32,417 bases of DNA from NCBI GenBank assembly GCA_015488335.1, contig WFNZ01000004.1, forward strand, positions 1 to 32,417, written 5' to 3'. Made by a program: the position numbers and the translations under genes. Positions 9,801 to 31,902 of this stretch are shown piece by piece (the first letter of the stretch is position 1; each line of letters starts with the position of its first letter). The stretch is from Thermovibrio sp. (GTDB taxonomy: Bacteria; Aquificota; Aquificia; Desulfurobacteriales; Desulfurobacteriaceae). The notes beneath the pieces were generated by a model. That model saw nothing but the letters and a program-made list of their open reading frames with translations. It was not told where the DNA came from and made no database searches.

Positions 9801-12359
9801 CTATTCATCAGGAAGATACTTGGTAATAACTTTCAGAACTTTAAACTTCCTGTCCTCAACAGCTTCTTTTAGAGGACTTACCTTGCCTGAATCCTCGGCA
9901 AGAGGGTCTGCTCCTACCTTCAAAAATACTTCTGCAACCTCTGCTCCATTGCTAACAGCAGCGTAATGAAGAGGAGTTTTCTTGAGGAAATCTCTGGCAT
10001 TAACGTTTGCTCCTGCCTTCAGAACCATTTTTGCTATCTTAAAAGCGTTATGAATACCGCAGTAGTGGGTTATTCTCTTTCCGTAATTATCAGTTGCTTC
10101 AAGGTTCGCTCCGTAGTCAGCAAGGAGGCGAGCCGCTTCTATCGCATCGTTCTTCGTAGTTAGACATAGAGGCGTCCTGCCAAACTCATCCTTAACATCA
10201 ACAGGTAGTCCTACTTCCTCAACTAAAAACCTAATTGAATCAACGGCGTTGTAAAGGGCAGCTTCATGGAGAAGGGTTTTCTGGTGCTCTCCTCTATAGT
10301 TAAAGTCCACTCCAAGCCTCAAAAACTTATCAAGTACAGGAACAGTATTGTTCTTTACTGCCAGTTGTAAAGGAGTAACCTCTTCATTGTCAGGAAGGTT
10401 CACCCTGGCACCGGCGGAAAGCAGCATCTCTAAAATGTCTAAATGTTGTCCTTCAACGGCAAAGTGGAGAGCGGTTTTACCTTGATTATCCTGAACATTA
10501 ACATCTGCTCCAAGGTTTATAAGACGCTCAACAGCCTCTTTTGCTCCTTTAACAACGGCGTAGTGAAGAGGTGTTCTGCCAAATTCATTCTTCTCTTCAA
10601 TCTCCGCACCACTTTTGAAGAGGAGTTCCAGGATTTTAACGCTGTTGTTTGCAGTTGCATAGTGGATAGGCGTTCCCCCAAACTTGTCCCTGACCCTCAC
10701 GTCTACTCCTGCTTCAATCAGCGCCTGAGCTGCATCCACAGCACCTGTGGTAGCAGCGTGGTGGAGAGGAGTCCTTCCATCGGTATCTCGAACTTCCTTA
10801 TCAGCACCGCACCTTACCAGAGTTTTAACAGCTTCAGCAAAGTTTAAACCTACAGCGTAGTGTAGGGGGGGTAAGCCTTTCTCATCTTTAAGGTTCGGAT
10901 TGGCACCGTGCTTGCAAAGGAGTTCTACAAAATCTGCTCTACCTTTTTCAACAGCATAGTGGAGGGGAGTTTTCCCTGTTTTATCCTGAACGTTAACATC
11001 TACCCTCTGTTCAATCAGGTAAGAGAGGGATTTTTCAGCCTCGTTAATAACGGCATAGTGGATGGGAGTCCTTCCAAAGTCGTTTTTCTCATTTACATCA
11101 ACTCCCAGTTTTAGAAAGAGCTCTATGAGCCTAACGCTGTTGTTTGCAGCTGCATAGTGGAGTGGAATCCCTCCAAATTTGTCTCTTGCCCTTACATCAG
11201 CTCCCAACTCAAGGAGAACAGAAGATGCTTCAAAGGCATCCTTCATTGCGGCGTGGTGAAGAGGTGTTCTTCCCTCTCCGTCCCTCTCATTAACGTCAAA
11301 ACCTAACCTTTCAACTAAAAACCTTACAACGTCTGCCTCGTTGAGGGAAGCTGCCTCGTGGAGAAGCCCTTTGCCTTTTAACGTTTCCCTGTCAATAACT
11401 GATAGGAAAAGCCTTAGAGCTTCAGTATTTCTGTTGGCTATGGCGTAGTGAACGGGAGTTTTCCCAAACTTGTCCATTTCCGAGACGAGAACTCCCCTCT
11501 TAAGGAGCTCCTCAACAATCTCTCCGTTCCCGGTTACAACGGCATAGTGGAGGGGAGTCTTCCCTAAGTTATCTTTAACGTTTAGCTCTGCCCCCAACTC
11601 AGCGAGCAGATTGAAGATGTCTTTCCTGCCAGTTTCAACGGCAAGGTGTATAGGATAAACACCCTCCCGCGTGGGAATGTTTTTCAGAAAGTGAAATTGC
11701 TTAACGAGAGCAGCGTTCCCCTCCTCTATGGCGTAGTGGAGAGCTGTTTTTCCAAAACTGTCCCGTGCATCAGGGGTTGCCCCTCTTTCAAGGAAGAGGT
11801 TAACAATGGAGATGTCCCCCTTCTCAACGGCATAGTGTAGAGGAGTCTTTCCTAAAGCATCCCCCCTGTCAACGTCTGCTCCCAAGTCTATCAGCTTAGC
11901 AGCCGTTTCAAGGTTTCCCTTTGAAACGGCGTAGTGTAGAGGTGTTCTTCCCTCTGCATCGGTAGAGTTAAAATCGCAACCGGCCTTTACCAAAAATTCA
12001 ATGGCCTCAAGTTTACCTGCAGCCGCCGCGTAGTGTAGAGGCGTTCTCCCCTCTTTATCACCTCTGCACAGTTCAGCATTTGCAGAGGAGAGGAACTCCA
12101 GAATCTTCAGGTTCCCTGCAGCTGCGGCGTAGTGTGCAGGTGTTCTTCCCTTAACGTCGGGAACGTTCAAATCAAAACCGAGATTTCTAAAAACCTGCAG
12201 GCTGTTCAAAGCTCCCTTTTTAGCGGCAACGTGAACGGGGGTTACCCCTTTCTCATCAGAAACGTTTAGTGGAACTCCCCTTTCTATCAACTGTGATAGC
12301 TGGGAAATATCGTCTTTAGCAACAGCAGAGAAAATCAACTTAAACTGTTTATTTTCCAT
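9801..12359 (-). CDS. Giant ankyrin-repeat protein (about 25 repeats), last gene of the curli locus
   Basis: The protein is 852 residues and almost wholly ankyrin repeats of 33 residues: about 25 units between residue 36 and the end, most with a GRTPLHYA-type start and a GADVN-D-type end. Units 6 and 9 are two to three residues short and unit 21 is one longer. Units 11-14 (361-492) are clearly similar to units 16-19 (526-657), and units 10-11 to 21-22, so the array grew by block duplication. No signal peptide or membrane span is visible, so it is probably cytoplasmic. The start ATG lies 14 bases after csgG, behind GGTGGGA, and is probably cotranscribed with it. Ankyrin arrays bind proteins; the partner is unknown. 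A link to curli biogenesis is inferred from position only. Confidence 0.9.
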   Translation of the reverse strand: MENKQFKLIFSAVAKDDISQLSQLIERGVPLNVSDEKGVTPVHVAAKKGALNSLQVFRNLGFDLNVPDVKGRTPAHYAAAAGNLKILEFLSSANAELCRGDKEGRTPLHYAAAAGKLEAIEFLVKAGCDFNSTDAEGRTPLHYAVSKGNLETAAKLIDLGADVDRGDALGKTPLHYAVEKGDISIVNLFLERGATPDARDSFGKTALHYAIEEGNAALVKQFHFLKNIPTREGVYPIHLAVETGRKDIFNLLAELGAELNVKDNLGKTPLHYAVVTGNGEIVEELLKRGVLVSEMDKFGKTPVHYAIANRNTEALRLFLSVIDRETLKGKGLLHEAASLNEADVVRFLVERLGFDVNERDGEGRTPLHHAAMKDAFEASSVLLELGADVRARDKFGGIPLHYAAANNSVRLIELFLKLGVDVNEKNDFGRTPIHYAVINEAEKSLSYLIEQRVDVNVQDKTGKTPLHYAVEKGRADFVELLCKHGANPNLKDEKGLPPLHYAVGLNFAEAVKTLVRCGADKEVRDTDGRTPLHHAATTGAVDAAQALIEAGVDVRVRDKFGGTPIHYATANNSVKILELLFKSGAEIEEKNEFGRTPLHYAVVKGAKEAVERLINLGADVNVQDNQGKTALHFAVEGQHLDILEMLLSAGARVNLPDNEEVTPLQLAVKNNTVPVLDKFLRLGVDFNYRGEHQKTLLHEAALYNAVDSIRFLVEEVGLPVDVKDEFGRTPLCLTTKNDAIEAARLLADYGANLEATDNYGKRITHYCGIHNAFKIAKMVLKAGANVNARDFLKKTPLHYAAVSNGAEVAEVFLKVGADPLAEDSGKVSPLKEAVEDRKFKVLKVITKYLPDE

Positions 12360-12373
12360 TTTCCCACCTGCCG

Positions 12374-13381
12374 TTATTTTTTCTTAACTTTATCGTCTTC
12401 AAACCAGACCACAAGACCTCTTTCCTGTCTTATCCTCTTTAAATACTCCCTTATTTCTTTTTCTGTAAAGTCCCTTCCAAGTATTTTTCTTAAGTTGTCC
12501 TCTTCTTCTTTAATCTGGTCAACTTTTGTCTTAAAGTATTCTTGAACAACTGGTGAGTAGACGTCCTTCGGGTTTTTCGGCTGCCAGTAACCTTTAGCTA
12601 TACCTTCAATTATAAGAGCATATACAGCCTTTTCAATAGCTCCTTGAAGGGCATAGAGGGCAGGCTCGTTGGTAGTTACACCGCTTTCCAGTTCAAATAG
12701 TCTTTTCCATTTTACATATTTAAAAGCATTTACATCTACTTCCCGCGAAAGAATCGTTTTGGTTGCAGTTACGGTAAGGAGAACCTCTCCCGTCTTTGCA
12801 GCAACAGCCCTTAAGTAAACAGTTACTCTATCTCTCCTAAGCTTGGTTGAACCGCCAACACCAAAGTAGCGAGCTCCAAACCCTCCCGTTACCACGTCTG
12901 TGTCATACCCTATTATACCTCCTGTAAGTATTATAGGGGCAAACTTGAGAGGTGGTAGCACATCTCCTTTCGGCTGTAGCCCTTTCTTCCTCAGCTCCTG
13001 CTCTATGGCGTTCCTTATTATTCTCCTTTCAGTTAGAACGTCTGCAAGATTTTCCCTCTCAAGGGGTAGAAACCAGCCGCTGTCGTAGCAGGCTTTAATC
13101 AGTATTGATGCAGCACCCTGAGTTACGGCAGTGGAAAAGGTGCTTATATTGTTGTAAACCTTATACTGACCGGTTTTATCCCTGAAGTTATATATGGCCA
13201 CAGGAATCACTTCTTTAGGTGGAGGGAGAAACTCTAAGAGACTGTGAACGGGAGGCTCCTCGTCTGTTTTAGGAGGCTGAACAGTCATAGGAATGTGGGT
13301 TTTTGGGGGTGTTGTATAGGTACAGCTAGAAACTACAAGAGAACAAAATAATACCCCCAGAAACTGGCGCAAATAGGCCAT
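12374..13381 (-). CDS. csgG: CsgG-family curli secretion channel lipoprotein
   Basis: CsgG forms the nonameric outer-membrane pore that exports curlin. This homologue has 335 residues. A lipoprotein signal ends VVSSC (Cys20). The CsgG signature follows: AIYNFRDKTGQYK, FSTAVTQGA, GWFLPLERENLADVLTERR, GGIIGYD, GGFGARYFGVGGST, TVYLRAVAAKTGEVL, KTILSREV and TSNEPALYALQGAIE-like spacing. In the constriction segment Tyr76 and Phe82 correspond to E. coli Tyr51 and Phe56. The Asn55 equivalent is Thr81, and one residue is inserted. A basic, helical C-terminal tail of roughly 60 residues extends beyond the E. coli protein. SD is AAGGAGAAGG before ATG. It follows csgF in the order E-F-G. Confidence 0.93.
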   Translation of the reverse strand: MAYLRQFLGVLFCSLVVSSCTYTTPPKTHIPMTVQPPKTDEEPPVHSLLEFLPPPKEVIPVAIYNFRDKTGQYKVYNNISTFSTAVTQGAASILIKACYDSGWFLPLERENLADVLTERRIIRNAIEQELRKKGLQPKGDVLPPLKFAPIILTGGIIGYDTDVVTGGFGARYFGVGGSTKLRRDRVTVYLRAVAAKTGEVLLTVTATKTILSREVDVNAFKYVKWKRLFELESGVTTNEPALYALQGAIEKAVYALIIEGIAKGYWQPKNPKDVYSPVVQEYFKTKVDQIKEEEDNLRKILGRDFTEKEIREYLKRIRQERGLVVWFEDDKVKKK

Positions 13382-13417
13382 TTATCCTTCTCCTTGGTTA
13401 TTTTGCAATGCATTATA

Positions 13418-13834
13418 CTATTTGTACATTGGCACTTCAACTGTAGTTTCATTGCCTGTAGTTGTATCTATCAAATGAACTTGTATTTCCGTTTCTGATG
13501 GTATAACTTGAATTTGGAAATTGCCTATTTCATAAGTTCCGGGATTTAGCTGTTCTTCTCCAAAAGCTGCATTTGCAATTTTAGAAGCAAGTTTGCTTAA
13601 AATTAAGTACTGTAATCTGTTTTTGAAATCCTCCAGAGCTGATGTTTTAGGGATCGGCTTTGAAGGTGCATGGTAAATGTTCTGGGCATCGGCCTCGGAC
13701 TTGAAAGCATAGAAATAATTAGGGTCTCCTCCAAAAGCTGGTATGAGAAACTTATAAGTCAAAGTAGACGCAGAAACAGCGGTACTGAGTGTTAATGCAC
13801 TTATTAAGAAAGTTATGATTTTTCCCCTTTTCAT
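13418..13834 (-). CDS. csgF: CsgF-family curli assembly factor
   Basis: The protein is 138 residues with a signal peptide ending near AVSAS. The mature N-terminus reads TLTYKFLIPAFGGDPNYF. This parallels the E. coli CsgF start (TMTFQF, NPNFGGNP) that plugs the CsgG pore. Conserved features continue with DAQNIY, SALEDFKNRLQ, an ILSKLASKI helix and a C-terminal beta segment (VHLIDTTTGNETTVEVP). CsgF caps the CsgG channel on the outside and hands curlin to the nucleator. SD is AAGGGGG before ATG, nine bases after csgE. Together with csgE and csgG it establishes a true curli secretion system rather than a stray CsgG. Confidence 0.9.
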   Translation of the reverse strand: MKRGKIITFLISALTLSTAVSASTLTYKFLIPAFGGDPNYFYAFKSEADAQNIYHAPSKPIPKTSALEDFKNRLQYLILSKLASKIANAAFGEEQLNPGTYEIGNFQIQVIPSETEIQVHLIDTTTGNETTVEVPMYK

Positions 13835-13843
13835 TCTGCCCCC

Positions 13844-14278
13844 TTACATCTGATTCTCAAGGCTTTTAATTCTCAGAAAATCGGATAACAGAAACTTTAA
13901 AACACGTTTTGATGCTGATACCGCATATCTCTGCATATCAAAGTCGGCAGTAGTAGGTTTAAGTAAGTTCACATAAACAATCCTATTATAGATATTATCA
14001 CCTACAGATACAACTATCCAGCTCTGTTTAAAAGATGGTTTTTCTTCCTTGATAATTATGAAATATCCATCAATCCCTTTAGGTGGTTTCCAGACTTCCG
14101 TAAAAGTTTTGTAAAACCTATGTCCCCAGGGGGTTTTCGTATGGTCAACAATTAGATAACCCACTTCTGACTGTGGTTTGGCAGGAAGGGAAAAAATTAG
14201 AACAATAAAACAAATGAAAAAAAGGGGGGCTACCCCCCCCTTCTGTAGTTTTAACAAACTCTTAGTAAACCTTGACAT
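13844..14278 (-). CDS. csgE: CsgE-family curli secretion specificity factor
   Basis: The protein is 144 residues from ATG 14278. CsgE is the periplasmic cap that gates CsgG. Matching features are GYLIVDHTKTPWGHRFYKTF (E. coli LLTDHTVSSIGHDFYRAF), an INERPS-like IKEEKPSFKQSW, and the VSVGDNIYNRIVYV strand. The N-terminus is basic, then strongly hydrophobic (PLFFICFIVLIFSLPA): a signal peptide. The open frame runs back to 14458, but I choose ATG 14278 because AAGGTG lies six bases upstream and the signal peptide then fits. This start overlaps the curlin stop by 17 bases. An intrinsic terminator lies within codons of this signal peptide, which is unusual and probably limits expression. Confidence 0.87.
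   Translation of the reverse strand: MSRFTKSLLKLQKGGVAPLFFICFIVLIFSLPAKPQSEVGYLIVDHTKTPWGHRFYKTFTEVWKPPKGIDGYFIIIKEEKPSFKQSWIVVSVGDNIYNRIVYVNLLKPTTADFDMQRYAVSASKRVLKFLLSDFLRIKSLENQM
14217..14240 (-). terminator. Intrinsic terminator after curlin, inside the csgE reading frame
   Basis: On the minus strand eight G are followed by TAG, six C and seven T. The six-GC stem has a small loop and an uninterrupted U run, a textbook Rho-independent terminator. It begins 22 bases after the curlin stop and falls inside the signal-peptide codons of csgE. Most transcripts from the curlin promoter should end here, with read-through feeding csgE, csgF, csgG and perhaps the ankyrin gene. Confidence 0.85.
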
Positions 14279-16136
14279 ATGATGCACCTTCAGCTCCAGC
14301 CTTCTGTGTAATAGCAATTGTATTACCGCTGGATGTGATGTCAATATCAGCATAGACGCTAGCACCGGAGCTTGTCTGGTAGAGCTTGAGTGTATTGTTA
14401 GAGCCGGTAACGTCAATATCAGCGTATGCAGACGTGCTGGCATTCTGGTAAACATCAACTTCGTTGTTGTTTACGCTGCTGCCGGAAGAACCAATGTCAA
14501 GGTAGAAGTCAGCCGTTGTTCCAGCAACTTGCTTGAGAGCTACAGTATTTTGATCTCCGTAGATGTGAGCTTTGAGTGTTGCATTATCTCCAGCTTCCTG
14601 AACAAGACCGGCATCGTAGTTAGCTGCAAGTCCGTTAGCGTCAGAACCTACATCAATTCCACCCATGGAGTTGTTGCTTCCGTTCATAACAACTTCAAAG
14701 TCAACAGCACCGTTTGTAGACTTAACGTCGTTAACTTTGAGCTTGTTGGAATCTCCATTCTCCTGTGTTACGTCAATTGTAACCTTATTCTTAGCGCTTA
14801 TCTCATCAGCTACGATGAACTCACTGTTTGAAGAGCTCTGGTCGACTGTGATATCTACAGCGTCGTCAGATGAAGTAACCTTGTTGATGTCTACCTTATC
14901 AGATGCTGCAGACTGGGTAATGTTCATTGTTACATCTTTTTCAGCAGTAACTGTATCCATGCTTACGGTATCACTGGAACCGCTCTGGGTGAATGTGAGC
15001 TGAGCCTTACCTGAGTTGGAAGTTACAGTATCAAGGTCAATAGAGTCTAAGCCTCCAGACTGTGTAGCGTTTATTGTTACGTCGTCATTAGCTTTAACCT
15101 GGGTATCTACTTTGAATGAATCGTTTCCGCCTGTCTGGATGATATCAGCACTTACATCAGCAGAATCTGAAGTAAGGTTTGCTATATCAACAACGTTGCT
15201 GCCGTTTTCCTGGTTAACTTTGAAGGTAACTGTACCAGCTGAAGCATCTATTGCATCTACGTGAACCTGGTTGGAGTCTCCAGACTGGTCTATAGCTACT
15301 GTTGTATTATCTGCTGAATCTACATCGTGCATGAGAACTGTGTTGCTTCCACCATCCTGTGTAAGAGTATCGTCGCTGTAACCTTCTATTGTAAGCTTTC
15401 CACCAACATTAAAGTCGGAAAGAGTAACTACGTTGGAATCTCCTGTCTGCTGGGTGATTTTTGCCTCAAGGCTACCAGCTTTAACAGGAACAGTATCATC
15501 ACCTAATGTTATCTTGTTGCTGGCACCTCCGCTTTGATTTATGGTAAAGTCCATGTTACCGCTTGTTGTTTCTACATAGTTAAGATTCAGTGTGCCGCCA
15601 TCTTGCTGTGTTACATTTCCAGTCATTGCAGCTGCTGACTTAACGTAGCCAACGTTTATTGTGTTAGCACCAGCATTTTGTGTTACTGCAAGGTTGATGT
15701 CACCTGCTGCGTCAATCTCCCCTTTCTTGCTTCCGCCACCGTCTTGAGAGGTAAGGTTAACAGATTTTACGTTAATAGCATCGCTTCCATCTTGATTGAG
15801 TTTGAAATCAATGTTGTAGTCGTTAGAGCCGTCGTTTGCAGTCATTTTGAGGTATTCTTTTGAGCCGTTAACAATGTTTCCTACGTTGTTGTTACCTCCT
15901 GTCATTGAACCTTCAAGGATTACATCTTTACCGGTTTGTTGGATGAGGAGAATGTTGTTGTCACCGCCGATTTCAAACTGTTCTGATCCATCCTTCTGCT
16001 TTACAAACTGGGCTTGTCCTGAAGCATTCTGCTGAACATCAACTACTGAGTTATCAGCGTGTGCAGCTCCTGCAAAAGCCACACTACCTACTGCAAGTAG
16101 ACCGAGAGTTGCTTTGAGATGTTTCCTGATACCCAT
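14262..16136 (-). CDS. Giant curlin-repeat amyloid subunit (CsgA/CsgB-like)
   Basis: The protein is 624 residues from ATG 16136, chosen because AAGGAGGAGG lies just upstream and a signal peptide (GIRKHLKATLGLLAVGSVAF, then AHA) follows. The frame stays open 15 codons further without a site. The mature part is about 23 curlin-like units of 23-30 residues, each strand-turn-strand with a V-x-I-x-x-Q-S/N-G core such as VTINATQSGG and VTMNITQSAA. The last three units fit N-x5-Q best (NNTLKLYQ, NTIAITQK). It is rich in Asp, Ser, Thr, Asn and Gly, with no Arg, Cys or Trp after the signal and one Pro. E. coli CsgA has about 150 residues and five repeats. Secretion through CsgG/E/F is inferred from the operon. 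Confidence 0.9.
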   Translation of the reverse strand: MGIRKHLKATLGLLAVGSVAFAGAAHADNSVVDVQQNASGQAQFVKQKDGSEQFEIGGDNNILLIQQTGKDVILEGSMTGGNNNVGNIVNGSKEYLKMTANDGSNDYNIDFKLNQDGSDAINVKSVNLTSQDGGGSKKGEIDAAGDINLAVTQNAGANTINVGYVKSAAAMTGNVTQQDGGTLNLNYVETTSGNMDFTINQSGGASNKITLGDDTVPVKAGSLEAKITQQTGDSNVVTLSDFNVGGKLTIEGYSDDTLTQDGGSNTVLMHDVDSADNTTVAIDQSGDSNQVHVDAIDASAGTVTFKVNQENGSNVVDIANLTSDSADVSADIIQTGGNDSFKVDTQVKANDDVTINATQSGGLDSIDLDTVTSNSGKAQLTFTQSGSSDTVSMDTVTAEKDVTMNITQSAASDKVDINKVTSSDDAVDITVDQSSSNSEFIVADEISAKNKVTIDVTQENGDSNKLKVNDVKSTNGAVDFEVVMNGSNNSMGGIDVGSDANGLAANYDAGLVQEAGDNATLKAHIYGDQNTVALKQVAGTTADFYLDIGSSGSSVNNNEVDVYQNASTSAYADIDVTGSNNTLKLYQTSSGASVYADIDITSSGNTIAITQKAGAEGASYVKVY

Positions 16137-16333
16137 GGCACCTCCTCCTTTAGTTTGTTTTCCAGGCTTTTTGCCATTCACTTACAATCATAAGAAGGAA
16201 AGCCTTGTTTGTGAATATGCTTAAAGTTTGTTTTTTATGTCATTTTTTGTTTAAAACTATTATTTTGAACCTTAGTTTAAGGAATTTTTAAACCTTATTC
16301 AATTTTTATTTCTTAATACTGCCTTTCTGTCGC
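16137..16333 (-). other. Long AT-rich 5' leader of the curlin mRNA
   Basis: About 197 bases lie between the predicted start of transcription and the curlin ATG. The stretch has no reading frame I would trust. It holds a perfect 7-bp inverted repeat (16164-16170 with 16199-16205) just upstream of the ribosome-binding site and a shorter GTTTAA/TTAAAC pair further up. A regulatory or stabilising leader is plausible; I recognise no known riboswitch. Confidence 0.4.
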
Positions 16334-17444: not shown

Positions 17445-18937
17445 TTTCCTCTGATGTTAAAACCGCCTGCGCCTTTTACGCTTTTATCGTTAAATAGAGT
17501 TCCGGGAATAAAAAATCCACCGTAGAGCTGGAGCTCAAAATTTTTTATCGTCATCCTGTAGTAGCTTCCCAGACTCAGTCCCATAAATCCTTTATCTTTA
17601 AAGCGGTAGTAGTTATCGCTCATTATAGAGCTATTACCGTTCAGCCTGTAATAGTTAATGGAAAAACCGAGGGCTTTCTTGAATACCTTCAGTGAAACCT
17701 TCTGAACGTTCAGCGGGTCTACAACCATTAGATAGTCCGTTCCCCTCTCCGTATAAATGTGTCCTTTTGACGAGAGGGGTAAAGGTAAGTCCTTGTCAGA
17801 GGAAAAACTCAGTTTCAAGTTCAAGCCGCTCCAGGTTTTGTACTCTGCACTTAAATCTAACAGGTATCCTCCTCTGTTTGAAGTTAATAGAGAAAATAAG
17901 GAATTTCTATAGTTGATGGAACCAGACAACCAGGTTCTGCTTTTAAAAGGATAGAAATCTACGTTCCTTTTGACCAAGTTTTCAAAGAAGACAGAGCCCG
18001 AAAGGCTCAAATGGGGAAGAAATTTATAGTTTCCGTAAAACGATGTGAATACTAAATCCCTTAAACTGGTGTCGTTATATCCGTTCTCCAGTCCGAAGCC
18101 CGCTACGAAGTTCCCGCTGAAAGGGAACAGGGACCAAGATAAGGAAACAGCAGGGTTAGATGCATTCTCGTAGATAGTGTTTCTCTGGAGTATCCCCAGC
18201 TGCACGGTAAGGATATTTGTATTATCTAACTCCCTCTTGAAGAGTATAAGAGATGGAACATAGAGTTTTAAATCGGTTTTTTCTTTCTTCTCAATGGAAA
18301 TTCCAGCTGAATACTTCTGACGCTTAAAATAAAACGCTGTTCTGTAAAGTTTATATCTACCGTATAAGGGATTAACAGCAAATATGTCTAAGTTAAACTC
18401 AGTAGACGGCTTTTTATAGACTCTTGTTTGAGGAAATTTAAAAGGTGTAAACTCAGGCGATGTTGTATTAAAAGAAAAATAGTAACGTTTAGCTAACCTT
18501 TCAAAATTAATACCGTTCTCATTTCTCAAGTTTAGAGGTTTTTTTTTATAGTGATTGAGTTTACGGCTGAAAACTCCTCTTTCTTTCCCTTTAGCCTTTT
18601 GTTTTCCAACTATCGGTAGAACCCAACGGGAAGGTAATCTATAACACGTTCTCAGGAGAGCTTCGGGAAACAGTTTCTTAAGAATCCTGTAGTACTCCTC
18701 TGCCTCATCCTTACTTTTCCAAAAACCTACCCTAATAGTGTAGTAACTGCCTATTTTCTCTATTCTTTTATCAGGTACTCCCCTTAGCAGGTAAAACTTC
18801 TTCTCAAGCTTCCTGTTCAACTTCGGAGAGGAAAGCACCTGGACGCAGTAGTATCTCTCATTTTGCGATAGAGCCGTATTTACCAGTGTAGCTTGAACTA
18901 TCAGCGCGGTTAATGCAAACTTTCTAAGACTAAACAT
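17438..18937 (-). CDS. SPOR-domain plus outer-membrane beta-barrel protein
   Basis: The protein is 499 residues with a signal peptide (to about ALSQ). A SPOR-like domain follows at about 27-95 (YYCVQVLSS, then YYTIRVGFWKSKDEAEEYY), a fold that binds denuded peptidoglycan glycans. A linker leads to about 300 residues of alternating polar and aromatic/hydrophobic strands, ending in a C-terminal Trp (FNIRGKW), the usual mark of an outer-membrane barrel. A SPOR module in front of a barrel is uncommon. I do not recognise the barrel family. It overlaps the regulator gene by eight bases and the lipoprotein gene by seven, so it belongs to the same transcript and may anchor the secretion site to the cell wall. 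Confidence 0.7.
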   Translation of the reverse strand: MFSLRKFALTALIVQATLVNTALSQNERYYCVQVLSSPKLNRKLEKKFYLLRGVPDKRIEKIGSYYTIRVGFWKSKDEAEEYYRILKKLFPEALLRTCYRLPSRWVLPIVGKQKAKGKERGVFSRKLNHYKKKPLNLRNENGINFERLAKRYYFSFNTTSPEFTPFKFPQTRVYKKPSTEFNLDIFAVNPLYGRYKLYRTAFYFKRQKYSAGISIEKKEKTDLKLYVPSLILFKRELDNTNILTVQLGILQRNTIYENASNPAVSLSWSLFPFSGNFVAGFGLENGYNDTSLRDLVFTSFYGNYKFLPHLSLSGSVFFENLVKRNVDFYPFKSRTWLSGSINYRNSLFSLLTSNRGGYLLDLSAEYKTWSGLNLKLSFSSDKDLPLPLSSKGHIYTERGTDYLMVVDPLNVQKVSLKVFKKALGFSINYYRLNGNSSIMSDNYYRFKDKGFMGLSLGSYYRMTIKNFELQLYGGFFIPGTLFNDKSVKGAGGFNIRGKW

Positions 18938-19565
18938 TGATAGGAACAGACTCCTTCAGGAGAATTAATTTAAGGAGCTTTTTAAACCTGTAAAAACTTA
19001 ACACTATGTCTATTCTATTCCGGCGCTTTATCTTTTTAAGAATGGAGTTTATATGATGTTTTACTGTTTGTTCAGATACGTTTAACTTCCTCCCAATTTC
19101 TTTATTTGTTAATCCGTTAAGTAAATAGTACACAATGCAAAGCTCTTTTAATGTTAAAGAGGAAACTGCCACATCATAATTTATAAGTTTTTCTATAGTT
19201 GTCCTTCTTATCCAGAGTTCCCCTTTATTTACAACTTTTATGCATTTCTCAAGGTATTCTAACGGCATATTCTTGTATATAATCCCTTTTATTGGCAGTA
19301 AATTAAGAAGAACTATCAGTTCTTCTTCTTCAAAATCAAAGTCTAATATTAGAAGCTTTTTTTTCTGTTCTATTATTTCTAGAACTTCCGTATGGTCAGA
19401 ATCTATGTAATTATATCCTATAATAAGAATATCTGCTTCTTTCCAACTTTCAGTAAGAACTACTGTATTGGACAAATTTGCATTTATATAGGTTTTTAGA
19501 AGATCTTTAATAAACTTATTCTCTAAAAGCAAAGATAATTTAACTTCTTTTTCAGTTTCTACCAT
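18930..19565 (-). CDS. CsgD-like LuxR-family transcription regulator
   Basis: The protein is 211 residues. Residues 135-190 form a clear LuxR/FixJ helix-turn-helix (LTLKELCIVYYLLNGLTNKEI, LNVSEQTVKHHINSILKKI), with the NRIDIV tail also seen as NRTQAV in CsgD. The N-terminal half has the layout of a receiver, but the phospho-acceptor Asp position reads ILIIGYN, so phosphorylation looks impossible; E. coli CsgD is similarly a pseudo-receiver. The segment IKGIIYKNMPLEYLEKCIKV also parallels CsgD. It overlaps both neighbours by a few bases. It most likely activates the curlin promoter; its own control may come through the promoter and FNR-like site at 20836-20877. Confidence 0.82.
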   Translation of the reverse strand: MVETEKEVKLSLLLENKFIKDLLKTYINANLSNTVVLTESWKEADILIIGYNYIDSDHTEVLEIIEQKKKLLILDFDFEEEELIVLLNLLPIKGIIYKNMPLEYLEKCIKVVNKGELWIRRTTIEKLINYDVAVSSLTLKELCIVYYLLNGLTNKEIGRKLNVSEQTVKHHINSILKKIKRRNRIDIVLSFYRFKKLLKLILLKESVPINV

Positions 19566-27135: not shown

Positions 27136-27534
27136 ATGAGCATTGACGTCCTCACCGAAAACCTGAAAGAGGCCGTAAAGGCAGACCTTGAGAAGGAAGA
27201 GTTCGGCCACGTAAACGTCAGAAGGGCAAGGGAGCTGATAAGAGACCTTGGAGCTTACGTTTTAGACGTAAGGCCACCTGCCCACGTTGAACACGAGAAC
27301 GCAGAGGAGGCAGGAATTCCGGGAGCCGTTTACATTCCATACCCGGAGCTCCCATACCAGATGGACAGATTGCCAAAGCCAAAGAACCACCCTGTAATCG
27401 TTGGCTGTAAAAAGACAAGGCTTGCAAACAGGGTAGCAGGTCTCCTTTTAGCCCTCGGTTATCTAAACGTTTACGTTCTTGACACAGACATAGACAACCT
27501 TATTGAGTGCCACAGGGCCCACACAGAGGGTTAA
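27136..27534 (+). CDS. Single-domain rhodanese-like sulfurtransferase
   Basis: The protein is 132 residues from ATG 27136, preceded by AAGGAGGG; the longer open frame back to 27073 overlaps gpmI and lacks a site. The rhodanese fold is seen as AYVLDVRPPAHVEHENAEEA, the IPGAVYIPYPELP strand, and a short active-site loop at VGCKKTRLANRVAGLLLALGY with the catalytic Cys. Rhodaneses carry sulfane sulfur as a persulfide. The loop is basic, as in thiosulfate or polysulfide types. It is cytoplasmic. In a probable sulfur-metabolising host it may handle sulfane sulfur, but no sulfur genes adjoin it. Confidence 0.88.
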   Translation: MSIDVLTENLKEAVKADLEKEEFGHVNVRRARELIRDLGAYVLDVRPPAHVEHENAEEAGIPGAVYIPYPELPYQMDRLPKPKNHPVIVGCKKTRLANRVAGLLLALGYLNVYVLDTDIDNLIECHRAHTEG

Positions 27535-27538
27535 TCAA

Positions 27539-27595
27539 AAAGGCCGTCTCCTGAACTATATTTAAAAGCTAACACCACTTCAGGAGGCGGCCTTT
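27539..27595 (+). promoter_or_regulatory. Long hairpin masking the glcD ribosome-binding site and start
   Basis: The arm 27539-27555 pairs with 27579-27595 over 17 bp, with one G-U and no gap, around a 23-base AT-rich loop. The 3' arm contains AGGAGG and runs into the TTG start codon of the next gene. If the RNA folds, translation of the oxidase is blocked. The stem could also stop transcription from the gpmI operon, though only three U follow. It could be an RNA switch, a thermometer or an attenuator. Confidence 0.6.
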
Positions 27596-28970
27596 GATAT
27601 CTACAGAAGCACTTGGAAAAGACCTTCAAAAGCTCATCGGAAAAGAAAAGGTAAGAACATCAACAAGCTGGAGGCTCTCCTACGCCTACGACGGAACTCC
27701 AACAGGCTATAAAGGTGTTCCAGACGTTGTCGTCTTTCCAGAATCTACAGAAGACATTTCAAAAATCCTATCCTACGCCAACGAAAGAGGCATTCCTGTT
27801 TACCCCAGGGGAGCAGGTTCAGGACTAACCGGCGGAGCGGCTCCGCTTGAGGGGGGAATCGTTGTCTCTACAGAGAAAATGAATAGAATCCTGGAGATAG
27901 ACGAAGACAACTTAGGAGTTCTTACAGAGCCGGGAGTTGTTACCTACGATTTACAGAAAGAGGTTGAGAAAAGAGGACTCTTTTACCCGCCAGACCCTTC
28001 AAGCTACAAGTATTCAACAATAGGGGGGAACATAGCAGAAAACGCCGGCGGCCCAAGGTGTGTTAAATACGGCGTTACAAAAGACTACGTGATGCAGTTG
28101 GAAGTTGTCTTTGCAGACGGAACAGTCTCTAAGGTTGGCTCAAAGGCTGTTAAGTCTGTTGCCGGATACAACCTGAAAGACCTGATAGTTGGTTCAGAAG
28201 GAACTCTGGCCTTCATAACAAAGGCATACCTGAAGCTCATTCCGAAACCTGAAGCCGTAAGGACGGCAATGGCCATTTTTCCCAAAGTTGAGCAGGCTGC
28301 ACAGGCCGTTGCCGACATGTTCAAGGCTAAAGTCATTCCAACGGCCTGCGAGTTCCTTGATAAGAACTCCATAGTAGCCGTTGAGAACTACGCCAAAATC
28401 GGCCTTCCAACCTACGCAGAGGGGCTTTTGGTAATAGAGGTTGACGGATACGAGGCCGTTGTTGACGAGCTGATAAACAGGGCAGTTCAGGTCTGCAAAA
28501 AGGCTGGAGCTACAGAGATTAGAACGGCGTCAGACGAGAGCGAGAGGGAAGCCATCTGGATGGCAAGGAGAGCCGTTTCCCCCGCAATTGTTCAGCTGAA
28601 GCCAAAGAAGATTAACGAAGACGTTGTCGTTCCAAGGAGCAGGATTCCAGACCTGATTAAAGGCGTTTACGAGATTGCAAAGAAATACGACCTGATGGTT
28701 GTAAACTTCGGCCACGCCGGAGACGGAAACATTCACGTAAACTTCATGTATGAGCCTCACGAGGAGGAGAAGGTTCACAGGGCTGTGAGGGAAGTCTTTG
28801 AGTTCACGATCTCCCTTGAAGGGTCAATCTCCGGAGAGCACGGAATAGGCTGGATGAAGAAGGAGTTTCTGCCTTTAGAGGTTGGAAAGGCCTTAGAGAA
28901 GATGAAGGCTGTAAAGAGAGCTCTTGACCCAAACAACATTCTTAATCCAGGGAAGATCTTTGACCTCTAA
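27594..28970 (+). CDS. glcD: FAD-linked 2-hydroxyacid oxidase/dehydrogenase (GlcD-like)
   Basis: The protein is 458 residues. The N-terminal PCMH FAD-binding domain is clear: YPRGAGSGLTGGAAPLEGG, LTEPGVVTYDLQK, PPDPSSYKYSTIGGNIAENA, and KSVAGYNLKDLIVGSEGTL. The C-terminal cap has NFGHAGDGNIHVNFM and SGEHGIGWMKKEFL, ending in DPNNILNPGKIFD. This is the GlcD/D-lactate dehydrogenase family, which oxidises glycolate or D-lactate. The partner subunits GlcE and GlcF are not next to it, so the natural electron acceptor is unclear. The start is TTG 27594, the only one with a ribosome-binding site (AGGAGG), and that site lies in a hairpin. The gene ends against tonB on the other strand with overlapping stops. 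Confidence 0.9.
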   Translation: MISTEALGKDLQKLIGKEKVRTSTSWRLSYAYDGTPTGYKGVPDVVVFPESTEDISKILSYANERGIPVYPRGAGSGLTGGAAPLEGGIVVSTEKMNRILEIDEDNLGVLTEPGVVTYDLQKEVEKRGLFYPPDPSSYKYSTIGGNIAENAGGPRCVKYGVTKDYVMQLEVVFADGTVSKVGSKAVKSVAGYNLKDLIVGSEGTLAFITKAYLKLIPKPEAVRTAMAIFPKVEQAAQAVADMFKAKVIPTACEFLDKNSIVAVENYAKIGLPTYAEGLLVIEVDGYEAVVDELINRAVQVCKKAGATEIRTASDESEREAIWMARRAVSPAIVQLKPKKINEDVVVPRSRIPDLIKGVYEIAKKYDLMVVNFGHAGDGNIHVNFMYEPHEEEKVHRAVREVFEFTISLEGSISGEHGIGWMKKEFLPLEVGKALEKMKAVKRALDPNNILNPGKIFDL

Positions 28971-30053: not shown

Positions 30054-30539
30054 TTGAGCTTTGACATAGAGTTTGCCCACAGAGTTATCTTCTACATCCT
30101 TTACTTCCTCTTTTTCCTCTCCTCGGCGGTATTTATAGAGAGGCTCCTCTACTACTTCTTCACCTTTCCGGCAGAGAAAAAACTGATTCAGAAAGAACTT
30201 GAAAAGGCGGGTGAGAAAGGGGCGGAGCTCCTTTACACCTCTTACTCTTCAAAACTTGAAAGGGGCAAGGGGCTTTTAATGTTCGTAATAACTGCCTCTC
30301 CTCTTTTAGGACTCCTTGGAACGGTTCTTGGAATAATGGAGTCTTTCAACACAATGGCAGAAAAAGGCGTTTCAGACATAGCGGCGGTAAGCAAAGGAAT
30401 CGCCTTCGCCCTTGAAGCAACAGCTCTTGGAATAGCCGTTGCCGTTATCTCTCTCATCTACTACTACATAGTTGTAGGCCTTTCTAAAAAATTCAAAACA
30501 GAAATCAAGAAACTTATCATTAAAACTCTTACTGAGTAA
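30054..30539 (+). CDS. exbB: ExbB/TolQ/MotA-family proton channel protein
   Basis: The protein is 161 residues with three membrane spans: about 10-30, then the pair at about 75-95 and 115-140. The family core is ITASPLLGLLGTVLGIMESF, MAEKGVSDIAAVSKGIAFAL and EATALGIAVAVISLIYYY. ExbB forms the pentameric channel around ExbD that powers TonB. It is short compared with E. coli ExbB (244 residues) because the cytoplasmic regions are reduced. The start is TTG behind GGAGG. Its last 11 bases overlap the end of the convergent csx1 gene. Confidence 0.9.
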   Translation: MSFDIEFAHRVIFYILYFLFFLSSAVFIERLLYYFFTFPAEKKLIQKELEKAGEKGAELLYTSYSSKLERGKGLLMFVITASPLLGLLGTVLGIMESFNTMAEKGVSDIAAVSKGIAFALEATALGIAVAVISLIYYYIVVGLSKKFKTEIKKLIIKTLTE

Positions 30540-31851
30540 ATTCATTTGAGAGCTTTATAAGGAATTTTTCAACCGTTCCAAGGCTTTCTTTTTTGTATCT
30601 TACTGTTTCATATTTAAGGTTAAATTCTATCATGTTGGTTAAAAGACCAGAATGGGCAAAGAAATTCCTGAGCTGTGGCCTACTGTTTTTATGTTTTTCC
30701 TCTGTATCAACTTTTTCTCCAGGAAGAAAGTAGTCTAAAATTATCCTATTGTCTTTCTTAAAGTTAGAAATTATTGTTCTAAGCCTACTTATATCTTTTT
30801 CCAGAAGTGTGTAGTTAACGTTCTCAGTTCCAAAAAGCGAAGAGTAAATACCTCTAAACTTACTCAAAAGCTTATCAACGTTTTCGCAGGAGTTGGGAGT
30901 GTTTGGCACGTGGTATTTTCTGAGGAGCTCCGAGATTCCGTAGTAGAAACCTATAAGGAGAATTAAACTTATGATTCTGCGGGAGTTTAGTCCTTCCGGA
31001 GAGAAAGTGTAGAAGATTTTCCCGTTCTCTTCTTTGAACTGAGGAGGGTTTTCAGAGTTGCCCATTACAGGTTCAAGCTCTTTTATGAGCAGATTTAAAG
31101 TCTTCTCTATTTCTGAAGGAGTGTTATATCCTAAAAGGTAAACGGCTAAGGGAATGTTTTTAAGGACTGCTGTTAGTATTAAAACGGCTCTTTGGCTTAA
31201 AGAGACTATTTCGTTGGCGATTTCCTCTCTAACGGGGAGTTTCTGGAGCTCCCTTTCCGCATCTTTTACTCCTTTATAGTTGAGAGGAAGTGAAGGAAAA
31301 CCTTTCACTTTAAAAGGTTCGCTGAAAACCTTTAATGCCTCTTTGAGGTTGCCTATTGCCGGTTCAGAGTAGGCTATCTGGAATTGGTTGCTTTCACCCA
31401 AGCCTATTCTGGAAAGGTGGCTGAAAACCTCAAGGTATCTGAAGGCTTCTGCCATTGAGAAGGTTATCTGGTTATTCCCCGTTGATATGTCTGCAAAGAG
31501 GTTTAAATCCTTCTCTTTCCAGATTTCTGTTGTTTTAAGCATGTGGAACAGGAAGAAAAAGGTTAAAGAGCTGTAGTTGGAAATAAACGTTTTTCCGTTG
31601 AAAACGCCCATGGCCGGAGATTTTATGATTTGGGTGGAAGGGAGCTCCTCTTTTATCACTTTAACATCTTCATCGTCTAAACTGTGAGGAACAAAGGCAA
31701 CCGGCTGAACGCCTTTTAGCCTGGCGAGCACCGGAGCGCTGCCAACAACAGAAGAAACAGTTCTACCCTCATAAACAAACTGCCTTAAAGAGTGCCCGCC
31801 TTTACCTGTTAGCTTTCCAGATACGAAAAAGACAAATCCTTTCTTTTCCAT
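30529..31851 (-). CDS. csx1: Csx1-type CARF-HEPN CRISPR ancillary ribonuclease
   Basis: The protein is 440 residues from ATG 31851 with GGAAG upstream; the open frame 15 codons further runs into a degenerate CRISPR repeat. The N-terminal part has a CARF-like core with DISTGNNQITFSMAEAFRYL (121-140), a variant of the DxTHG motif of Csx1 proteins. The C-terminal HEPN domain shows R-x4-H in RPQLRNFFAHSG (Arg395, His400), the RNase catalytic pair. Such proteins are activated by cyclic oligoadenylate made by the Cas10 subunit of type III systems and then cut RNA non-specifically. No cas10 or other type III gene is in the window. It lies directly downstream of the array and in its transcriptional sense. 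Confidence 0.8.
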   Translation of the reverse strand: MEKKGFVFFVSGKLTGKGGHSLRQFVYEGRTVSSVVGSAPVLARLKGVQPVAFVPHSLDDEDVKVIKEELPSTQIIKSPAMGVFNGKTFISNYSSLTFFFLFHMLKTTEIWKEKDLNLFADISTGNNQITFSMAEAFRYLEVFSHLSRIGLGESNQFQIAYSEPAIGNLKEALKVFSEPFKVKGFPSLPLNYKGVKDAERELQKLPVREEIANEIVSLSQRAVLILTAVLKNIPLAVYLLGYNTPSEIEKTLNLLIKELEPVMGNSENPPQFKEENGKIFYTFSPEGLNSRRIISLILLIGFYYGISELLRKYHVPNTPNSCENVDKLLSKFRGIYSSLFGTENVNYTLLEKDISRLRTIISNFKKDNRIILDYFLPGEKVDTEEKHKNSRPQLRNFFAHSGLLTNMIEFNLKYETVRYKKESLGTVEKFLIKLSNEFTQ

Positions 31852-31878
31852 ACTTCCAATTTTAAACCAGCTTCTAAA

Positions 31879-31902
31879 GCCACAATCCCAGGGCATTTCA
31901 AG
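31879..31902 (-). repeat. Degenerate, internally deleted CRISPR repeat at the csx1 end
   Basis: The sequence keeps CAATCCC at one end and AGGGCATTTCAA at the other. It lacks about 11 middle bases (TTCAACTTTTC) of the 35-base repeat and has point changes. It marks the old, leader-distal end of the array, 27 bases upstream of the csx1 start and one 39-base spacer from the first full repeat. Confidence 0.75.

Follow-up and report, generated by a model that had tools for sequence, protein, structure and literature searches.

The window analysed here is the whole stretch of 32,417 nucleotides at the beginning of contig WFNZ01000004.1 of a Thermovibrio species, whose genome of 1.65 Mb (G000) was compared with those of other Desulfurobacteriaceae. 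Two co-directional genes on its forward strand are separated by a gap of 59 nt: a rhodanese-domain gene (27136-27534, stop codon 27532-27534; open reading frame with a PF00581 match, E = 1.2e-9) and a glcD-like gene for an FAD-linked oxidase (27594-28970, TTG start; PF02913 and PF01565), the product of which scores 513.5 bits against the glcD model TIGR00387, under its cut-off of 567.9. On the same strand, 5 nt beyond the rhodanese stop codon, begins a hairpin with the 5' arm AAAGGCCGTCTCCTGAA at 27539-27555 and a loop of 23 nt at 27556-27578, both defined by folding and by the alignment of five genomes, and the 3' arm TTCAGGAGGCGGCCTTT at 27579-27595. Near-perfect complementarity of the arms with one G-U pair, claimed by the sequence-only reading, was borne out by the fold of the window sequence, which gives 17 contiguous pairs. 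That reading also correctly placed the ribosome-binding site within the 3' arm and the start codon at its base, since AGGAGG occupies 27582-27587 and the first two bases of the TTG codon (27594-27596) are paired.

Elsewhere in the window, a curli-type cluster on the reverse strand (12374-16181 and 18930-19565) holds homologues of csgG, csgF and csgE (PF03783, PF10614, PF10627), with a LuxR-type regulator nearby. Beside them is encoded a repetitive, secreted-looking protein of 639 aa, rich in Asn, Gln and Ser and lacking any Pfam or NCBIfam match, which may be an unusual fibre subunit. Adjoining the curli-type genes, a protein of 852 aa (9801-12359, reverse strand) consists almost wholly of ankyrin repeats. 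A CRISPR-associated RNase-like protein of 455 aa (30529-31896, reverse strand) has a C-terminal match to the Csx1 HEPN domain (PF09455, E = 3.2e-7).

Such exact masking had been judged unlikely to arise by chance, and the statistics agree. Region 27520-27620 folds at -31.1 kcal/mol (z = -4.28), with none of 200 shuffled sequences equally stable, and of the 569 starts called in 611 kb of G000 none has a stronger uninterrupted stem over its Shine-Dalgarno (SD) site; under a cruder score the hairpin ranked second of 266. Gene starts in the surveys were taken from a simple purpose-made caller, and the chance expectation for stem counts was obtained by exchanging upstream regions between genes. Six stems scoring at least 18 were observed in G000 against 0.58 expected (maximum 2 in 40 permutations), and six among 402 starts of G013 against 0.70 expected (maximum 3). 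These twelve are of mixed kinds: the G000 list includes one start without an SD, one palindrome of a TetR-type gene and one transposase gene, and the G013 list a TetR-type palindrome and a gene that overlaps the adjacent one. The TetR-type palindromes and transposase genes were kept in the survey counts and left out as junction cases.

When duplex energy was averaged over all starts, G000 and G036 showed no excess, and G013 and G007 showed little. At co-directional gaps of 25-200 nt, duplexes at least as strong as -18 kcal/mol numbered 8 of 85 in G000 (2.1 expected, maximum 5) and 8 of 77 in G013 (4.8 expected, maximum 9). At the same energy threshold, G007 had 10 of 365 (0.96 expected), an excess made up mostly of transposase copies, and G036 had none among 374. 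For gaps of 45-75 nt a small excess was seen in G000 (3 of 24, the glcD case included, against 0.68 expected, maximum 2), while the value for G013 (5 of 18 against 2.67) is not significant, because the permutation maximum of 5 equals the observed count.

The surveys also brought up structures of other kinds. Ribosome sites masked by an upstream complementary arm occur at transposase genes of the rve, Mutator and DDE types (L176, L178, L181, L184, L189 and L182 of G007; L146 of G000) and resemble the fold-back protection of insertion sequences. Upstream of the start of a gene in G007 that, judged by its N-terminus, looks like metE (L177, 12787-14952, reverse strand), a stable hairpin covers the ribosome site; it may be a leader with a different type of regulation. 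The strongest fold under the cruder score, at L118:868, precedes a presumably MutS2-like gene; it was dropped as a junction case because the start has no SD and the hairpin resembles a separate conserved RNA. This long hairpin (about 797-863 of L118) is conserved upstream of the MutS2-like gene also in L241, L242 and partly L250, carries the motif GGTAATTGGAGGGGGGTCTT between its arms, has no Rfam family, and is possibly an undescribed structured RNA.

Of the six genomes in the genus, five retain the glcD stem (15 to 17 of its pairs in each), while four-fold sites of glcD differ among these five by 9-47%. Over the intervals used, 0-2 of 17 positions are changed on the 5' side, 0-5 of 22 in the loop and 0 of 14 on the 3' side, and the loop sequence TATATTTAA is invariant. 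One substitution converts the G-U pair to G-C; of the loop-proximal pairs, both are lost in G005 and one in G002. Compensating changes in relatives had been proposed as a check on the structure, and none was found: no pair of the glcD stem is altered on both sides among the five close genomes that alone carry it. In the sixth genome (G004) the rhodanese and glcD genes lie on different contigs, and its glcD, which follows a TrkH gene with a gap of 50 nt, has no such stem. A comparable stem was found at only 5 of the 22 glcD loci examined, and one of the 17 loci lacking it belongs to the same genus; therefore the stem follows the rhodanese-glcD junction and not the glcD gene. The possibility of a dispersed repeat was rejected, as the only full or near-full copies that a DNA search turned up in 41 genomes lie upstream of glcD in the five genomes, other matches being at most 36 nt long. 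No match of the hairpin sequence to plasmids was found.

The loop contains TATATT (27557-27562), which starts 37 nt upstream of the start codon and is identical in the five genomes. Position -37 is where these genomes tend to put their -10 boxes. A -10-like box was defined as TAnnnT, situated between -41 and -32 and agreeing with TATAAT at four or more of the six positions. Such a box precedes 68 of 184 likely own-promoter starts in G000 and 42 of 125 in G013; for operon-internal starts the counts are 17 of 244 in G000 and 9 of 156 in G013. TGnTAnnnT is likewise enriched upstream of likely own-promoter starts. Among starts with strong upstream complementarity the box is found at only 3 of 8 in G000 and 7 of 12 in G013. 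The glcD TATATT has neither a good -35 element nor TG at the extended -10 position and is absent from the list of a simple promoter scan, so we regard it as the likely, rather than the proven, -10 box of glcD. Judged from its position, transcription would begin at 27567-27571.

A transcript begun there would lack the 5' arm, and therefore the stem should form only in RNA reading through from the rhodanese gene. For 27583-27588, the open fraction predicted in the read-through RNA is 0.0002 at 37 °C and 0.0028 at 75 °C; in RNA starting at 27568 it rises to 0.25 and 0.40, respectively. Over the zone from -18 to -6 of glcD, it is 0.61 at 75 °C for the loop-started RNA versus 0.27 for the read-through RNA.

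A similar layout was found at other gene junctions. In nine genomes a FadL-like gene (PF03349) lies 51-65 nt behind a TatA-like gene, and in eight of these the duplex between the upstream region and the SD is of -18 kcal/mol or stronger. All eight have a TGnTAnnAT box 35-42 nt before the FadL-like start; in the ninth (G008, gap of 55 nt) the box is present and the stem absent. None of the nine FadL orthologues examined with other neighbours has the stem. The TatA-like label comes from Pfam on one genome, just over the cut-off, and from a match of the C-terminus in the others; G020 (start not found), G015 and G017 (partial genes) and G006 (no orthologue) were dropped. The FadL arms vary between lineages yet still pair, most clearly in G018. 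When arms were swapped in silico, the mean energy was -27.5 kcal/mol for own pairs versus -19.1 kcal/mol for cross-lineage pairs, although 16 of 36 cross pairs were as strong as the weakest own pair, because arms of the CCTCC type pair promiscuously, and only G018 was best in both its row and its column.

The AMMECR1 gene behind crcB has the stem in seven of eight genomes where the gap is 53-64 nt and in none of five where it is 18-24 nt; none of the seven remaining AMMECR1 loci examined has it. This contrast within one gene pair is the best natural experiment available here, though the genomes are related. The crcB label was assigned by Pfam in one genome and by C-terminus match in the others, and G015 (no start) and G017 (no match) were dropped. 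At a helix-turn-helix gene (sigma-region-4-like and other helix-turn-helix matches), CCCCCTCCATC and its complement flank a loop of 23 nt, and the stem is present in 3 of 3 cases, both orthologues found (54% and 69% identical) having kept it. An unlabelled gene of 172 aa (L164) was not taken as a conserved case, because its duplex reaches or exceeds the -18 kcal/mol level in just 3 of 14 genomes. In several of the FadL cases, and at the AMMECR1 gene of G013, the predicted gain in accessibility is slight or absent.

The sequence itself shows the stem and its conservation, a -10-like box within the loop and recurrence of the layout at other junctions. From these features we infer a glcD transcription start in the loop, an RNA reading through from upstream and a block of its translation, and propose, with a probability of roughly 0.58, that the hairpin is a gene-junction insulator. 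The own promoter of glcD would have its -10 box in the loop, and the mRNA begun there would be free of the 5' arm, leave its ribosome site open and be translated. Read-through RNA from the gpmI-rhodanese side would hold both arms and fold into the 17-bp stem, hiding AGGAGG and the start codon, and little GlcD would be made from it. The 3' end of the upstream unit, the promoter and the ribosome site would thus be packed within about 60 nt. This keeps from the sequence-only reading the hidden ribosome site and its bearing on read-through from the rhodanese gene, but as a block and not as a switch. The same reading had named, as the observation that would speak against it, a start inside the loop that leaves the 5' arm out of the glcD mRNA; the likely -10 box points to just such a start. 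The extension to the family is more tentative, and we put it at somewhat below even odds: at least two genera of Desulfurobacteriaceae would use a junction module of about 60 nt, with a promoter in the loop and the SD in the 3' arm, by which each gene is expressed from its own start alone and read-through RNA is silenced, and whose presence varies with the length of the gap, as seen at crcB-AMMECR1.

The main rival to the insulator, considerably less probable, is that the hairpin mainly terminates transcription of the gpmI-rhodanese unit or stabilises its 3' end, and that compaction has overlapped its 3' arm with the ribosome site and its loop with the promoter. The closeness of the hairpin to the rhodanese stop codon fits this, as do three U residues at the base of the stem and the rhodanese genes of G004 and G013, which in other surroundings directly precede a strong hairpin; a stable stem directly after a stop codon is what local intrinsic terminators have. 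However, the rhodanese genes of G008, G020 and G018 have no strong hairpin right past the stop codon, and the strong stems at convergent gene ends in G000, G013 and G007 have loops of at most 10 nt in 37 of 38 cases, unlike the 23-nt loop here with its -10-like box and an SD in the arm. An intrinsic terminator combines a short loop with a U-run, and the sequence after this stem on the forward strand is GATATCT. The stems at the related junctions reach the start codon without a U-run; for this reason, and because local terminator loops are short, we favour the insulator.

Regulated translation of glcD by an RNA switch or a heat-opened element, as the sequence-only reading suggested, fared poorly. 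It requires the glcD mRNA to start upstream of the 5' arm and to carry a leader that acts as a riboswitch or thermometer or is bound by a protein. The precision with which the SD and start codon are masked speaks for it, as does conservation of the stem in five genomes. The likely -10 box inside the loop argues against it, as does the lack of a comparable stem at most glcD loci. No Rfam family matched at the gathering score anywhere in the window, and a permissive Rfam search gave only matches far below threshold. Thermovibrio grows near 75 °C, and a thermometer should open near that temperature; the stem is predicted to remain stable, at -13.0 kcal/mol at 75 °C and -8.8 kcal/mol at 85 °C. We consider such a leader unlikely.

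Slightly less likely still is a DNA operator, an inverted repeat binding a regulator around the -10 box. The repeat does flank the likely box, and two surveyed TetR-type genes carry short-loop palindromes of this kind, but from junction to junction the stem sequence changes and only the SD complement is shared, and an operator would not need an arm exactly matching the SD and start codon. A chance structure or recent inverted duplication without function is the least probable reading: it agrees with the restriction of the glcD stem to five close genomes and the lack of compensating changes, but not with the z score of the fold, the nearly unchanged arms beside four-fold sites differing by up to 47%, or the reappearance of the layout at other junctions.

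Masking of this kind has precedents. It is found in transposons: the transposase genes of IS10 and IS50 are protected by fold-back from outside transcription, while RNA from the inside promoter stays open. As proposed for glcD, read-through RNA folds over the start and RNA from the inside promoter does not; the IS10/IS50 fold-back protects a mobile element, whereas the glcD hairpin concerns a metabolic gene. The principle is already published for T4 genes, and hairpins that cover the ribosome site when transcription comes from an upstream promoter are described (PMC2988022) for I-TevI, I-TevII, I-TevIII, segB, soc, e and others and for mobE of phage Aeh1, the structure forming for I-TevI and others only on the upstream-promoter RNA and not on the late-promoter RNA. 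The glcD junction is similar in that a stable stem is predicted to hide the SD on upstream-started RNA, and, under our proposal, in that RNA of the nearer promoter is translated and does not carry the 5' part of the stem. It differs in that I-TevI belongs to phage genes with timed early and late promoters, whereas glcD is an ordinary chromosomal gene of a thermophile and the -10 box in its hairpin loop is probably of the housekeeping type; moreover, several junctions, each about 60 nt long, share the layout. For the Aquificales, transcript data exist for A. aeolicus (PMC4227106).

No comparable use at chromosomal junctions was found in the literature as judged on titles and the openings of abstracts, a weak test. 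The proposed use of the principle at several junctions of the chromosome, with conservation across genera and absence where only about 20 nt separate the same two genes, is apparently new. Where a hairpin covers a ribosome site, its loop should be checked for a promoter before a riboswitch or thermometer is named. If the insulator reading is true, compact bacterial genomes can keep adjacent genes apart with no terminator between them: the read-through RNA is made untranslatable, while the gene's own RNA is left open.
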